From: Actinomycetota bacterium
GTDB lineage: Bacteria; Actinomycetota; Acidimicrobiia; Acidimicrobiales; Ilumatobacteraceae
DNA length: 64,000 nucleotides
Assembly (NCBI GenBank): GCA_016871395.1
Contig: VFYV01000001.1
Location: 62,001 to 126,000 of the forward strand
Reading direction: 5' to 3'
Part shown: piece by piece, positions 13,285-18,733 of the stretch
How the letters are laid out: each line of letters starts with the position of its first letter
How positions within the stretch are numbered: the stretch's first letter is position 1
The notes under the pieces: generated by a model
Databases searched by the model: none
The model's input: the letters and a program-made list of their open reading frames with translations, nothing else
What the model was told of the DNA's origin: nothing
Translations under genes and position numbers: made by a program

Positions 13285-14649
13285 GTGCCATCGGAGAGAC
13301 GCAGAGCCCGCCGAGTGTTGTCTCTGGTGTTCTTGTCGGCGTTCGGTCTGGTCTTCGCGTTCATGTCCAGTCCCGCTCACGGGGCGGACTTCGCCCTTCG
13401 GATCCAGGTGAAAGAGCAGTTCCGAGACGCCAACGGCAAAGCCGACAATCAGCCGGTGGCCGGGGTATCGATCTCGGTCACCGATGCCACCGGAGTCGAG
13501 ATCGGGGCCGCAGAAACCGACGAGACCGGCGTGGTCGTCATTCCCGTCCCCGAAAAAGCCGACTACACCATCACGCTGGACGAGTCGACCCTACCCGAGG
13601 GCGCAGCTCTCGATCCGGGGTCTCCCGCGGTCCAAACGGTCACCGAAGACAGCTTCGTCACCGACACCAGGATCGTCGTTTTCTTCACCGGTCAGTCCCA
13701 GAGCGAGTCGCAAACCTTCTTCGAACGGTTGTCACAACGAATCCTCGACGGGGTACGCCTCGGACTCGTCTTGGCGATGTGTGCAGTCGGATTGTCACTG
13801 ATTTTCGGTACGACCGGCCTTACGAACTTCGCTCATGGCGAGGTGGTCACCTTCGGAGGCTTGGTCGTCTTCGTGTTCAACATGGCGGGACTCAGTTTCC
13901 TCGGGTTTCTGAGCTTCCTACCGGGAGTCTCCGAGCAAGGTACGTTTCATATTCTATGGGCCGCACCCATCGGCGTGGCCTTCGGCGGACTTTTCGGTTG
14001 GGCGCTTAACGCCGCGATTTTCTCGAGATTGCGTCGTCGAGGCGTCGGCCTCGTTACTCAAATGGTGTTGACGGTCGGTCTCTCGATCCTGTTGCGAAAC
14101 TTCTTCCTGTCGCGTTTCGGTGGTCGCACGCGCCCGTATCGAGAGTTCACGCTGCAGCGCTCATGGGAAATCGGACCGGCCAGTATCACCCCGCGTGATG
14201 CAGTGGTGTCACTCCTCTCCCTCGTGATTCTGGTGTCGGTGGCCGTCGTGTTGCGCTACACGCGGTTGGGAAAGGCCACCCGCGCAGTGTCCGACAACCC
14301 CGATCTGGCTTCGGCCACCGGTATCGACTCTGAGCGCGTGATCAGGCTGGTATGGATCATCGGCGGTGCGCTCGCCGCGATCGGAGGGGTCTTCCGAGGA
14401 TTGGACGAGCAGGTCAGTTTCGACATGGGAGGTCGCTTGCTCTTCTTGATGTTCGCGGGTATCACGCTCGGCGGACTGGGCTCGGCTTTCGGTGCTCTCA
14501 CGGGTGGATTCGTGGTGGGCATCATGGTGGAGGTTGCTAGTTTGGCGGTGCCGACCGAATTGAAGGCCACCCCGGCGCTGTTGGTCTTGATCCTCGTTCT
14601 TCTCTTCCGACCGCAAGGAATCCTCGGCAAGGCGCAAAGGGTGGGCTAG
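13285..14649 (+). CDS. livH: LivH-type ABC permease with extra exported N-terminal beta domain
   Basis: Permease subunit of a branched-chain-amino-acid-type ABC importer, 454 residues against about 300 for LivH. Residues 1-33 look like a signal peptide (RRR, hydrophobic core, SSPAHG-AD). Residues about 35-135 form an all-beta segment with GVSISVTDATG and AAETDETGVVVIPVP, resembling carboxypeptidase-regulatory or SpaA-like folds. From about 150 the normal permease begins (ILDGVRLGLVLAMCAVGLSL, then TNFAHGE) and ends with LFRPQGILG. The added domain should sit outside the membrane, perhaps contacting the binding protein. It abuts livM directly (stop then ATG). Confidence 0.85.
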   Translation: MPSERRRARRVLSLVFLSAFGLVFAFMSSPAHGADFALRIQVKEQFRDANGKADNQPVAGVSISVTDATGVEIGAAETDETGVVVIPVPEKADYTITLDESTLPEGAALDPGSPAVQTVTEDSFVTDTRIVVFFTGQSQSESQTFFERLSQRILDGVRLGLVLAMCAVGLSLIFGTTGLTNFAHGEVVTFGGLVVFVFNMAGLSFLGFLSFLPGVSEQGTFHILWAAPIGVAFGGLFGWALNAAIFSRLRRRGVGLVTQMVLTVGLSILLRNFFLSRFGGRTRPYREFTLQRSWEIGPASITPRDAVVSLLSLVILVSVAVVLRYTRLGKATRAVSDNPDLASATGIDSERVIRLVWIIGGALAAIGGVFRGLDEQVSFDMGGRLLFLMFAGITLGGLGSAFGALTGGFVVGIMVEVASLAVPTELKATPALLVLILVLLFRPQGILGKAQRVG

Positions 14650-15660
14650 ATGGATTGGACACTCATCATCGAGAACAGCCTGAAGGGACTGGTCGGAATC
14701 AACGCGGTGTATTTCGCCGTGGCCGCCATCGGTATGAACGTTCAGTACGGCTACACCGGGCTTTTGAATTTCGGTCAGGCCGGTTTCATGGCCTGCGGGG
14801 CGTACGGATTGGGGATGACGGCGCACTACTTCCACATTCCGATGTGGTGGGGCATACCACTGGGGGTTTTGTTCTCCGTTCTTCTCGGTCTCCTGATGGG
14901 AATTCCCACTCTTCGGTTACGGGCCGACTATCTCGCGATCGTCACCATCGCCGCGGCCGAGATCATCCGCTTGGTCGTCCGCTCCGTGAGATTCAAGGCG
15001 TATTTCGGCGGTAGTGATGGGATCAACAATTTCTCGGAGACTTTTCGAAAGGTCGGGACCGATCTCGGAATCCGACAGTCTGCCGAATACGGCTTTTGGC
15101 CCTTCAGGTTCACCGGACGGGAACTCTGGACCCTCACGATCGGCTGGTGTGTCGTGGCCCTGTTCGGCTTCATCGTGTACCAACTCATGAAGAGCCCCTG
15201 GGGTCGCGTGTTGAAAGCCATCCGCGAGGACGAGGATGCCGTACGCAGCCTCGGAAAGAACGTGTATTCCTACAAGATGCAGTCCCTGATCCTTGGCGGC
15301 GTGATCGGCACTTTCTCTGGGATGATCTTCGCCCTCGACCGTGGCAGTGTTCAGCCCGACAATTACAGCCGTGACGTGACGTTCTACATCTTGACCGCCC
15401 TCGTTCTTGGTGGTGTGGCCAAGGTGTCGGGTTCGATCATCGGCCCCATGCTGTTCTGGGGACTCTTCACCTTCGTCGACAACTTCATGCGACAAATCGC
15501 CGAGAATCCGATCAGGATCGGAAACTTCATGATTTTGCAATCCACTCAGATCGGGCAGTTGAACTACATGTTGATCGGCCTCGCCCTGATCCTGCTGATG
15601 GTCTTCCGACCCCAGGGTTTGGTGGGCAATCGCAAGGAGATGGCCTTCGATGGGCGCTGA
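14650..15660 (+). CDS. livM: LivM-type ABC permease
   Basis: Second permease subunit, 336 residues, with about nine membrane helices. GYTGLLNFGQAGFMACGAYG (about residues 35-54) and LRLRADYLAIVTIAAAEII (about 90-108) are family signatures, and RVLKAIREDEDAVRSLGKNV is the cytoplasmic coupling loop that contacts the ATPases. It ends with FRPQGLVG like other LivM proteins. Its start immediately follows the livH stop, and livG starts inside its last 11 bases. Confidence 0.92.
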   Translation: MDWTLIIENSLKGLVGINAVYFAVAAIGMNVQYGYTGLLNFGQAGFMACGAYGLGMTAHYFHIPMWWGIPLGVLFSVLLGLLMGIPTLRLRADYLAIVTIAAAEIIRLVVRSVRFKAYFGGSDGINNFSETFRKVGTDLGIRQSAEYGFWPFRFTGRELWTLTIGWCVVALFGFIVYQLMKSPWGRVLKAIREDEDAVRSLGKNVYSYKMQSLILGGVIGTFSGMIFALDRGSVQPDNYSRDVTFYILTALVLGGVAKVSGSIIGPMLFWGLFTFVDNFMRQIAENPIRIGNFMILQSTQIGQLNYMLIGLALILLMVFRPQGLVGNRKEMAFDGR

Positions 15661-16525
15661 GCGTGTCTGCAGCGAGAGCGCCAAACGAGCGCGGGCCGCT
15701 CTCGAGACGTGTGATCGCGTGCCGGGGTCGACGAAGCCGGATCCGATCCTCGTTGCCGAAGCCGTGCGACGAGAATTCGGCGGACTCGTGGCGGTGGACG
15801 TGGCACATCTCGAAGTTCAGCGAGGCTCGATCACGGCGCTGATCGGTCCCAACGGAGCCGGCAAGACGACCCTTTTCAACCTCGTAACCTCGTTCGACAC
15901 TCCGAACACCGGAACCTGGGTCTTCGATGGGCGTTCGATGGAAAAGGTGCCATCCCACCGCACGGCCGCAATGGGAATGGTGCGAACCTTTCAGTTGACC
16001 AAGAGCCTCACCAAGTTGTCGGTCATCGAAAACATGCGCCTCGGCGCGACCGGACAAGTGGGTGAGAAGTGGTGGAACGGTTTGTTCGGCGCGCGCTGGC
16101 GCTCACAGGAGGCCGACATCACCGAACGAGCCGAGGCGCTTCTCGCGCGCTTCAATCTGTCCCACATGCGTGATGAGTACGCGGGTGCGCTTTCGGGCGG
16201 ACAACGCAAACTACTGGAGATGGCCCGCGCACTCATGATCGAACCGACGTTGGTCATGCTGGATGAGCCCATGGCCGGCGTGAATCCGGCCCTCAAGCAA
16301 AACCTGAATGACCACATTCGCGATCTCCGCGACCAGGGTATGACCGTGTTGTTCGTCGAGCACGACATGGACATGGTCCACGACATCAGCGACTGGGTGA
16401 TCGTGATGGCCGAAGGGCGAATCATCGCCGAGGGCACGCCTGACGACATCTCGCGCAATCCGGCCGTGATCGACGCCTACCTCGGGGCCCATCAGGGGCG
16501 ATCCTTGCTGGAGGAGGAAGCATGA
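15650..16525 (+). CDS. livG: LivG-type ABC ATPase
   Basis: ATP-binding subunit, 291 residues. Walker A is GPNGAGKTT (about residues 65-73), the Q-loop lies in VRTFQLTK, the signature is ALSGGQRK (about 181-188), Walker B is LVMLDEP and the switch His is in VEHDMDM. A polar N-terminal extension of about 35 residues precedes the usual LivG start; a later start is possible, but the ATG at 15650 overlaps the livM end and is plausible. It overlaps livF by 4 bases (ATGA). Confidence 0.92.
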   Translation: MGAERVCSESAKRARAALETCDRVPGSTKPDPILVAEAVRREFGGLVAVDVAHLEVQRGSITALIGPNGAGKTTLFNLVTSFDTPNTGTWVFDGRSMEKVPSHRTAAMGMVRTFQLTKSLTKLSVIENMRLGATGQVGEKWWNGLFGARWRSQEADITERAEALLARFNLSHMRDEYAGALSGGQRKLLEMARALMIEPTLVMLDEPMAGVNPALKQNLNDHIRDLRDQGMTVLFVEHDMDMVHDISDWVIVMAEGRIIAEGTPDDISRNPAVIDAYLGAHQGRSLLEEEA

Positions 16526-17256
16526 GCGATGTCGTTCTCGATGCTCGCGAACTCGTCGCTGGCTACGTCCCCGAGGTGAACATCCTGAACGGGTGCGACC
16601 TCGAGGTTCGAGTGGGGGAGTTCGTGGGCATCATCGGCCCGAACGGTGCCGGAAAATCCACCCTCTTGAAGGCCGTTCTCGGCCTGTGCAAAATCCGATC
16701 GGGTTCGGTCAGTCTCAACGGAGAGGACATCACCGGACGTCGAGCCCACGACTTGGTGCCGCAGGGTGTCGGATACGTGCCGCAATCCAAGAACGTCTTC
16801 CCCAGCCTCACGGTTCGCGAGAACCTGGAGATGGGCTGCTTCTTGAAGCCGTCGCTGTTCAAGGACCGTTTCGAATTCGTGTCGTCGATATTCCCGAAGC
16901 TCGCCGACCGAGTCGGTCAGCGTGCGTCGGCACTTTCGGGGGGCGAGCGCCAAATGGTGGCGATGGGCCGAGCACTCATGCTCGAACCCAAGATCTTGCT
17001 GCTCGACGAACCTTCGGCCGGATTGTCGCCGGTTCTTCAAGACGAGGTCTTCCTGCAGTGTCGAGCGATCAACAAGAGCGGGGTCGCGATTCTCATGGTC
17101 GAGCAGAATGCTCGACGGTGCCTGCAGGTGGTGAATCGCGGGTACGTGCTGGATCAGGGTCGCAATGCTTACACCGGAACCGGACGCGAACTACTCGGCG
17201 ATCCCAACGTGATCGAGTTGTACCTCGGAACGCTGGTCAAGGCGACCGGCGGCTGA
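16522..17256 (+). CDS. livF: LivF-type ABC ATPase
   Basis: Second ATP-binding subunit, 244 residues. Walker A GPNGAGKST lies near residues 38-46, the signature ALSGGERQ near 134-141, Walker B ILLLDEP, and VEQNARRCL carries the Gln-Asn version of the H-loop region typical of LivF. It is the last gene of the liv operon and is followed by a strong hairpin shared with the convergent binding-protein gene. Confidence 0.93.
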   Translation: MSDVVLDARELVAGYVPEVNILNGCDLEVRVGEFVGIIGPNGAGKSTLLKAVLGLCKIRSGSVSLNGEDITGRRAHDLVPQGVGYVPQSKNVFPSLTVRENLEMGCFLKPSLFKDRFEFVSSIFPKLADRVGQRASALSGGERQMVAMGRALMLEPKILLLDEPSAGLSPVLQDEVFLQCRAINKSGVAILMVEQNARRCLQVVNRGYVLDQGRNAYTGTGRELLGDPNVIELYLGTLVKATGG

Positions 17257-17312
17257 GACGCCGCAGGTCGTCTCTGAGGGTCGGGTCGGGGCTCGTCGCG
17301 GACCAAGGGAAA

Positions 17313-17334
17313 GGCCCCCGGTTTCCCGGGGGCC
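17313..17334. terminator. Bidirectional hairpin between livF and the binding-protein gene
   Basis: GGCCCCCGG, a 4-base loop, then CCGGGGGCC: a perfect 9-base GC stem between two convergent genes. There is no clear U-tract on either side, so it may stop transcription by stem strength or by protecting 3' ends of both mRNAs. Confidence 0.6.
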
Positions 17335-17359
17335 CTTCCAGTTCCGAAGAACTACGGGA

Positions 17360-18733
17360 TCACTTGCCGGCGTCGAAATTCTCGCCGAGCGCGTTACCGA
17401 TGAAGCCGTCCACACCGTAGACGGCCTTGTTCTTGGGCCCGATCCCGTTCTCGACCATGGTCCGCAAGATGCGGCTGGCCTCGTCGAACGAGATCATGAT
17501 GATGGCGTCCGGATCGGCGGCGACGATCTCTGCGATTTCGGCGTCGAACGATGTCGCCGCCGGGTCGTAGATCTTCTTGCCGAGCACCTCGACGCCCGAG
17601 GCGCCGAGAACCTCTTCGGCGACATCGGCCAGGCTCGTTCCGTAGGCGTCGTCGAGAGCGATGATGTACGCCGAGGCGTTTCCATCTTCGGCGACGATAC
17701 CTGCGAGCACCGCACCCTGGAGGCTGTCCGGGGGAGCGTTACGGAAATAGAGACCGTTGTCGGCGTAGTCGGACAACTTCAACGAGGTGTTGGCCGGGCT
17801 GAACTGGATGATGCCAGCCTGGGTGATCTTGTCGATGACGGTGAGCGACACCGACGAAGAGGCCGCGCCGATGATGGCGTCTACCTCTTCGCTGATGAGG
17901 CGGTCGACGGTCACGCTGGCCGTGTCGGTACTGGTGTCACCCGAGTCTCCCGGTGAGTACTCGACCGGGTTGCCCAGCGCGCCGCCACCATCATTGATGA
18001 TGCTGACGGCGTACTCCACTCCGGCGATCATTGGTGCGCCAAGGAAGGCGAGCGAGCCGGTCTCGGGGAGGAGTCCACCAAGCTTCAAGACACCGTCACC
18101 CTCACGCTCCACACCAGCGCTGTCGAGCGGCAAAACGGCCGACTCGGGCGCAGCGGCGGGGATGTAGGTGGTCAGATCATCGTCGATACGGTTATCCGCG
18201 CCGAAATTCAAAACGCCGTAGGAGGCCTCGAGGGGCTCACCATTGCCGTTCAGGGTGTTCGGACCCGAGATACCTTCGTAGTCGACGTCCGTGCCGGCCC
18301 TGATGAGTTCGACGCAGGTCGTCCAATCGGAGCACTTTTCTCCGTCCTTGGACACAGCGACAATCTTGTCGGCCAGAGCCGAACCGTCGGTCCCGGCCGC
18401 CTCGGCGGCGAGAGCGATCAGCATCACGGAGTCGTACGACTCCGCGGCGTAACTCCAGTCATCGAGCGCTTCGTTGCCCTCGGAGACCCAAAAGTCGCTG
18501 ACGGCCTGCTTCCACTCGTCGGCGAGTTCGACGAGAGGAGTGGTGCCCTTGAGGCCCTCGAGTTCGCCACCGGAGGCCGGAGCCTCGGTTGACGGAGCCT
18601 CAGTGCTGGGAGCCTCAGTGGATGGTGCTTCAGTCGCCGGCGTCTCCTCGTCGTCGCCACCGCAGGCCACAGCGCCCACGAGTGCCAAACCGACGAGCAG
18701 AGCGCCAAAGCGGCGTGCGCTGGTCTTCTGCAT
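17360..18733 (-). CDS. livK: LivK-type substrate-binding lipoprotein, circularly permuted
   Basis: Periplasmic-binding-fold (type I) lipoprotein of 457 residues, presumably delivering substrate to the adjacent livHMGF transporter. Residues 1-24 are a lipoprotein signal (Cys 24 in AVACGG), and 33-53 are a TEAPS repeat linker. The fold segments are in swapped order. Residues about 57-190 (LEGLKGTTPL, YAAESYDSVMLIALAAEAAG, YEGISGP, YGVLNFGADNRIDD) match the usual C-terminal part. Residues about 215-457 (VLKLGGLLPETGSLAFLG through VDGFIGNALGENFDAGK) match the usual N-terminal part. The ends would join as FDAGK-LEGLKGT. The start at 18733 has a strong Shine-Dalgarno (GGGGGAG). Confidence 0.88.
   Translation of the reverse strand: MQKTSARRFGALLVGLALVGAVACGGDDEETPATEAPSTEAPSTEAPSTEAPASGGELEGLKGTTPLVELADEWKQAVSDFWVSEGNEALDDWSYAAESYDSVMLIALAAEAAGTDGSALADKIVAVSKDGEKCSDWTTCVELIRAGTDVDYEGISGPNTLNGNGEPLEASYGVLNFGADNRIDDDLTTYIPAAAPESAVLPLDSAGVEREGDGVLKLGGLLPETGSLAFLGAPMIAGVEYAVSIINDGGGALGNPVEYSPGDSGDTSTDTASVTVDRLISEEVDAIIGAASSSVSLTVIDKITQAGIIQFSPANTSLKLSDYADNGLYFRNAPPDSLQGAVLAGIVAEDGNASAYIIALDDAYGTSLADVAEEVLGASGVEVLGKKIYDPAATSFDAEIAEIVAADPDAIIMISFDEASRILRTMVENGIGPKNKAVYGVDGFIGNALGENFDAGK
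18579..18638 (-). repeat. Four 15-base tandem units encoding TEAPS-type linker
   Basis: Four imperfect 15-base units (consensus on the plus strand ggagcctcagtgnnn) inside the binding-protein gene encode the Thr-Glu-Ala-Pro-Ser linker between the lipid anchor and the folded domain. Such units can change in number by slippage without breaking the frame. Confidence 0.75.

Follow-up and report, generated by a model that had tools for sequence, protein, structure and literature searches.

The locus that we analysed raises the question of whether a LivK-type binding protein can be encoded with its halves in reverse, the segment that ends ordinary LivK proteins standing ahead of the segment that begins them, and, if so, how such an order arises and what it means for a lipid-anchored protein. 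In the window, by which we mean the whole 64,000-nucleotide stretch, the gene in question occupies positions 17360-18733 of the minus strand and encodes 457 amino acids; its reading frame is intact with a good start, as first described, opening with an ATG that has a purine-rich stretch upstream. The encoded protein begins with a signal peptide (aa 1-23; 18665-18733), followed by Cys24 in a context that fits the lipobox consensus, and by a low-complexity tether of T, E, A, P and S (aa 25-56; 18566-18661) that is largely disordered in the predicted model. Residues 57-194 (18152-18565) correspond to the C-terminal segment of ordinary LivK by their matches to PDB 4gnr, to a normal-order orthologue and to ANF_receptor. 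Residues 195-212 (18098-18151) form a new internal junction from the old C-terminus to the old N-terminus, recognized by comparing junctions and modelled as a block with a pLDDT of about 91-94, and residues 213-457 (17363-18097) correspond to the N-terminal segment of ordinary LivK, which stops at the break, according to Pfam, 4gnr, the orthologue and the structure match. The order of segments given in the original prediction therefore stands, while the start of the second segment moves from 215 to about residue 213. Six other proteins of the window's own genome (G000, loci L002-L007) carry a similar signal peptide and T/E/A/P/S tether, at 38-53% over about 40-55 residues of low complexity, and these are a possible source of a new start.

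That the segment order is really reversed follows from split database matches, from the gain in score on reordering and from the identities to an orthologue of normal order. The Pfam profile Peripla_BP_6 matches the protein in two stretches, the better of which runs from aa 216 to aa 446 and covers positions 2-230 of the 343 in the profile, and the LivJ of Streptococcus (PDB 4gnr) likewise aligns its chain positions 7-236 with residues 215-449 and its positions 252-319 with residues 62-134, the latter match being weak alone (7.5 bits). Searched alone against Pfam, aa 57-208 do not match Peripla_BP_6; they do match ANF_receptor at positions 273-350 of 353 (E 2e-7). When the halves are swapped back in silico, the two stretches become one, and the scores rise from 134.5 to 143.5 bits for Peripla_BP_6 and from 71.2 to 84 bits for 4gnr. 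The strongest evidence is the normal-order orthologue L028, to which the N segment is 61% and the C segment 51% identical, in reverse order and far beyond chance. The protein thus shares homology over both halves with the HAAT/LivK type I family and has partner livHMGF genes alongside, and because it lacks the ordinary segment order we class it as a permuted variant and not as a plain member.

The predicted structure is consistent with this reading. An AlphaFold2 model built on an alignment of 54 permuted sequences is confident (pLDDT 87.7, pTM 0.84) apart from a disordered start (aa 1-49, pLDDT below 50), and superposition places its residues 214-457 on residues 1-241 of 3ip5/3ipc (Z 21.9, 2.3 Å over 239 residues), that is, on the N-terminal part of normal LivK-like structures. 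Residues 57-194 are also modelled confidently, but lie beyond the reach of sequential aligners; that they complete the two lobes is suggested by homology together with model confidence. Pfam, 4gnr, L028 and the superposition all agree on a circular permutation of a LivK-type protein, which is what the original prediction had proposed.

The window genome is a draft in 43 contigs, and a misjoining of two partial livK genes was an obvious concern, but we reject such an artefact as next to impossible, since the gene is under purifying selection and the same order recurs in independent genomes, whole in 21 of 61 (its own and 60 relatives), in named Geodermatophilaceae isolates, in the one-contig genome G259 and in the 7-contig genome G019. 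Selection is evident from dN/dS, which lies between 0.05 and 0.11 for seven pairs of Acidimicrobiia and between 0.11 and 0.38 for six further pairs. Those 21 genomes hold the permuted protein in one open frame; three others (G007, G011, G012) have pieces only, which by their coordinates lie at or near contig ends. A scan of contigs from named genomes confirmed 517 relatives, and the best 80 of the 517 are all permuted, a count that is no frequency because these 80 were chosen by their match to the permuted query and some of the contigs are those of genomes already in our set. Three of the 80 loci are cut by contig ends (L064, L073, L081). The 80 include Acidimicrobiia, both Ilumatobacteraceae and others, as well as isolates of Geodermatophilus, Blastococcus, Modestobacter, Klenkia and Goekera. 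Even sampling of the phylum found the permuted protein in 8 of 396 genomes (any match at 1e-30 in 58); the order of G155 has it in 2 of 36 genomes, and the class of G259 in 9 of 296 (any match at 1e-45 in 77). A plasmid search for other phyla, in which 3 of 213 records were examined, returned normal order in Nonomuraea and Rhizobium, and in Arthrobacter normal order split over two frames.

Some individual loci have peculiarities of their own. In an Acidimicrobiales MAG (L087:1031-4000), an ORF of 990 aa encodes, besides a permuted LivK domain, an HSP70-type ATPase (PF00012, E 1e-37), a stretch rich in proline and a likely membrane segment, and a second permuted livK, cut by the contig, lies just upstream. 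The permuted livK of another locus (L088:9725-11182, from one MAG) has a middle that resembles a double frameshift region. In G006 (L242, contig G006:C136), a second piece, consisting of the N segment only and 70% identical, is present in addition to a full permuted gene, and its 4739-base contig ends there.

Having found the permuted order in many genomes, we can ask how often it arose, and here the position of the break is informative. The permuted proteins can be sorted into group A (Acidimicrobiia, including the window), F (G155, G405), G (Geodermatophilaceae, L099, G259, G615), H1 (G605, G683, G499, G514, G527, G484) and H2 (G579). In A and F the chain stops a few residues past a block like DGN.GNALGE, whereas in G, H1 and H2 the chain stops short of this block, which lies at the mature N-terminus instead. 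A model of the Geodermatophilus obscurus protein (pLDDT 78.8), which we used solely for the position of the break, aligns with residues 1-220 of 3ipc and has two more residues at its C-terminus; its first strand is absent because the first block is missing in most alignment rows. There are therefore two break points, at 3ipc residue 241 and at about 220-222, some 20 residues apart, and presumably, going by the domain limits of LivJ, both fall in lobe 2.

For the sequence trees, we left out 24 loci (same-contig copies, partial ORFs and one frameshifted row) and the partial ORF of L087, and thinned the permuted rows at 80% identity, which gave 54 rows in all. The first tree, rooted on 16 normal-order paralogues, was made without L087_N2 and L036_N; a second omitted nine rows that were long or distant and retained 4 of the 16 outgroup rows; and for a third, of 73 rows, four rows of the second set were removed, four were restored and 13 names of new normal rows were omitted. 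Rooted on normal-order paralogues, the 73-row tree splits the permuted proteins into five groups, between which orthologues of normal order are placed, and this takes at least five changes of order. Support is 100/98 for joining G to the normal proteins in family f57, 100/99 for joining H2 to a normal protein from its own family (f84), 94/91 for G alone and 92/94 for A; the separation of G from its normal sister had middling support in the two earlier trees (75/77 and 87/65). The original prediction had a single protein in view, and searching the family for the same order and mapping it on trees, as that prediction suggested, thus revealed a permutation that is widespread and recurrent.

How many of these changes are independent depends on topology tests, for which the groups were named after viewing the first tree. 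Forcing all 34 permuted rows into one clade is rejected on livK (dlnL 168, p 1.6e-56), as is joining G, H1 and H2 (a cost of 162 log-likelihood units, p 7e-36) or H1 and H2 (37 units, p 0.033), while A+F (p 0.354) and A+F+G (p 0.104) as single clades are not rejected. A 50-row set rejects A+G (p 0.008) and does not reject A+F+G (0.084), F+G (0.062) or A+F (0.155). Because A+F and A+F+G survive, two origins are all that the livK data require by themselves. A concatenated LivHMGF tree (53 loci, 1112 columns; LG+G4, not a mixture model) shows six changes of order and again separates the groups, with p values of 1e-15 for all together, 6e-60 for A+F+G, 5e-6 for A+G, 3e-7 for the main part of A plus G, 2e-6 for G+H1+H2, 0.010 for H1+H2, 0.019 for A+F and 0.058 for the main part of A plus F. 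Group A is itself not one clade in this tree (p 0.022), which means that livK and its neighbours differ in part of their history and weakens every test that takes in all of A. In the main, the neighbours nonetheless agree with the livK groups.

It could be argued that a single ancient permutation underlies all of this, and that later transfer, gene conversion or reversion to normal order produced the present pattern. Such a history would draw on the fact that A+F+G is not rejected on livK, on the nearly identical break of A and F, and on the indications that livK and its neighbours sometimes travel separately, but it has to contend with the rejection of an all-permuted clade, with two break points, with group junctions that are unlike each other and with the nesting of permuted groups among normal rows in the tree rooted on the 16 paralogues, and we think it very unlikely. 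Two separate origins of the permutation we regard as firm, three as likely and five as possible. A reasonably probable reading is a natural hot spot for circular permutation: at one conserved locus, one orthologous LivK would have been re-cut at least three times in Actinomycetota, perhaps as many as five, and never outside a stretch of about 20 residues, because a shift of the tether off lobe 1 and onto lobe 2 would be useful, or harmless only there, to a binding protein anchored beside its importer.

By what route might the order have changed? We compared 19 junctions, and in each the old C-terminus runs into a piece resembling a mature N-terminus, with differences between groups: in most rows of G the end of the junction, PLxIG or similar without the usual DG, looks like the N-terminal sequence of L131 and L212, which are the normal sisters, while most rows of the other groups keep DG or NG (L195 is without). 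Judged from sequence, these junctions look like the trace expected from a head-to-tail fusion with a tandem copy. The most likely origin would be a local tandem duplication of livK followed by in-frame fusion and trimming, repeated within Actinomycetota, with the chain opened each time inside a single stretch some 20 residues long. The tandem duplication and trimming put forward in the original prediction thus fits the 19 junctions, but an intermediate, duplicated or half trimmed, did not appear: a motif search for the break block at both ends found it in 0 of 118 permuted ORFs, a set in which same-contig copies are counted twice and three ORFs are cut, so that we continue to treat this route as an inference. 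The other textbook route to permutation (PMC3320104) is fission and fusion, in which separately encoded halves would have been joined in reverse order. Although this is a known alternative, the resemblance of the junctions to head-to-tail fusions of whole copies speaks against it, as do trees of the two halves, which give similar groups (61 of 73 rows, 12 having been lost to the motif split); no split halves were noticed in passing, and we consider this route unlikely.

The setting of the gene bears on what its product does. On the plus strand of the window lie livH (13285-14649; BPD_transp_2 at residues 153-439), a permease gene with an N-terminal exported domain, the permease gene livM (14650-15660) and the ATPase genes livG (15650-16525, whose true start may be further in) and livF (16522-17256), the last tail-to-tail with livK. 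A GC-rich palindrome between the two tails (17306-17340) can be seen by eye; a simple terminator scan called no terminator between livF and livK, the palindrome included. The tail-to-tail arrangement of livK with livF (livHMGF) is found at 65 of 72 loci, some of which are the same contig under two numbers, and is as usual at permuted (43/48) as at normal (22/24) ones; the available stretch of six loci (L085, L165, L167, L171, L175, L225) holds no livF at 50% identity or more. Group F is laid out differently, with livK on the head side of livHMGF in G155 (L166) and livH head-to-head with livK in the available part of G405 (L165), a local rearrangement next to the permuted gene that mildly favors F being separate from A. 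It had been suggested that the permutation and the exported domain of LivH may be linked. The domain (13285-13734), which has weak, below-cutoff matches to bMG3, CarboxypepD_reg and SpaA, is common at this locus type and is not confined to permuted loci, and we neither claim nor dismiss a link: of the loci having LivH, BLAST with the window's domain finds it in 40 of 43 that are permuted and in 14 of 21 with normal order, a difference that is no test, given a query taken from a permuted locus and rows that share ancestry. The higher share at permuted loci may be due to just these two factors, and some of the misses (L168, L174, L180) still have 144-236 residues ahead of the membrane part.

The order, conservation, purifying selection and locus are observed, and together with the predicted fold they make it very probable that the gene encodes a functional, lipid-anchored, circularly permuted protein that binds substrate for the LivHMGF-type ABC importer next to it, for which the ligand, the docking and the effect of the tether can be proposed. 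Residues 213-457 would form most of both lobes; residues 57-194, made first, would supply the part that comes last in ordinary LivK; and the short junction at 195-212 would join the old termini, possibly adding an extra hinge crossing, by analogy with the Treponema protein discussed below. The new termini would lie in a loop that we tentatively assign to lobe 2 from the domain limits of LivJ, such that the lipid tether would hold lobe 2 and not lobe 1. Sequence order and model thus both support the earlier claim that the anchor tethers the fold at a new point. The protein would most likely close on an amino-acid-like ligand and dock on LivHM in the usual way. We do not claim that the moved tether is an adaptation, as a neutral reading, for which we see an even chance, is about as likely. 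The tether is about 30 mostly disordered residues long, and such length and flexibility could make the site of the anchor unimportant, in keeping with the shared layout of permuted and normal loci. That breaks within one short stretch became fixed repeatedly could point to selection, but a permissive loop would do likewise.

Compared with known systems, the permuted protein is close to HAAT/LivJ-LivK (Peripla_BP_6, type I/cluster B), which it resembles in the homology of both halves, in being a lipoprotein beside livHMGF and, where aligned, in its predicted fold, and from which it differs in its reversed segments, its fused old termini and a tether at a new point. Duplication has also been modelled for natural permutations in DNA methyltransferases and saposin/swaposin (PMC3320104); these folds are unrelated to ours, and for the methyltransferases intermediates with partial duplication are on record, compared with none in our 118 permuted ORFs. 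Natural permutations of binding proteins seem to be rare in print. Our search, mostly of literature outside subscription, brought no permuted LivK-type protein to our notice, and the closest precedent, the one permuted binding protein that we noticed, is MglB-2 of Treponema pallidum (Tp0684, PDB 5JX2), a lipid-anchored type I binding protein described as "Type Ic/Cluster Bc" (PMC4990184). It still binds its ligand, its break lies in the N lobe with the strand order of the C lobe unchanged, its moved part is 13% identical, a fourth hinge crossing is described, and its authors consider the permutation a possible adaptation to membrane anchoring (PMC4990184). Both are circularly permuted type I binding proteins, ours by sequence and prediction. 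TpMglB-2 belongs to a sugar family, its type being marked by glucose as ligand and by a Ca site, and ours to LivK, whose two parts are both plainly homologous to those of normal-order proteins. The moved part comprises the first three N-lobe strands in TpMglB-2 (about the first 100 residues) and about the first 240 residues here, which sets our protein apart from that type, and the break, by the domain limits of LivJ, is presumably in lobe 2 and not in the N lobe. Profile searches report such proteins as split matches. Permuted LivKs mark the places at which a scaffold of the LivK type can accept new termini, information of interest to designers of biosensors, and several seemingly separate permutations, opened at two break points and accompanied by close sisters of normal order at loci of the same type, offer natural replicates for the question of membrane anchoring. 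Permuted binding proteins as such were already known from TpMglB-2, for which the portion of PMC4990184 available makes no mention of recurrence; what is new here is that recurrence, with several seemingly separate permutations of one LivK family.
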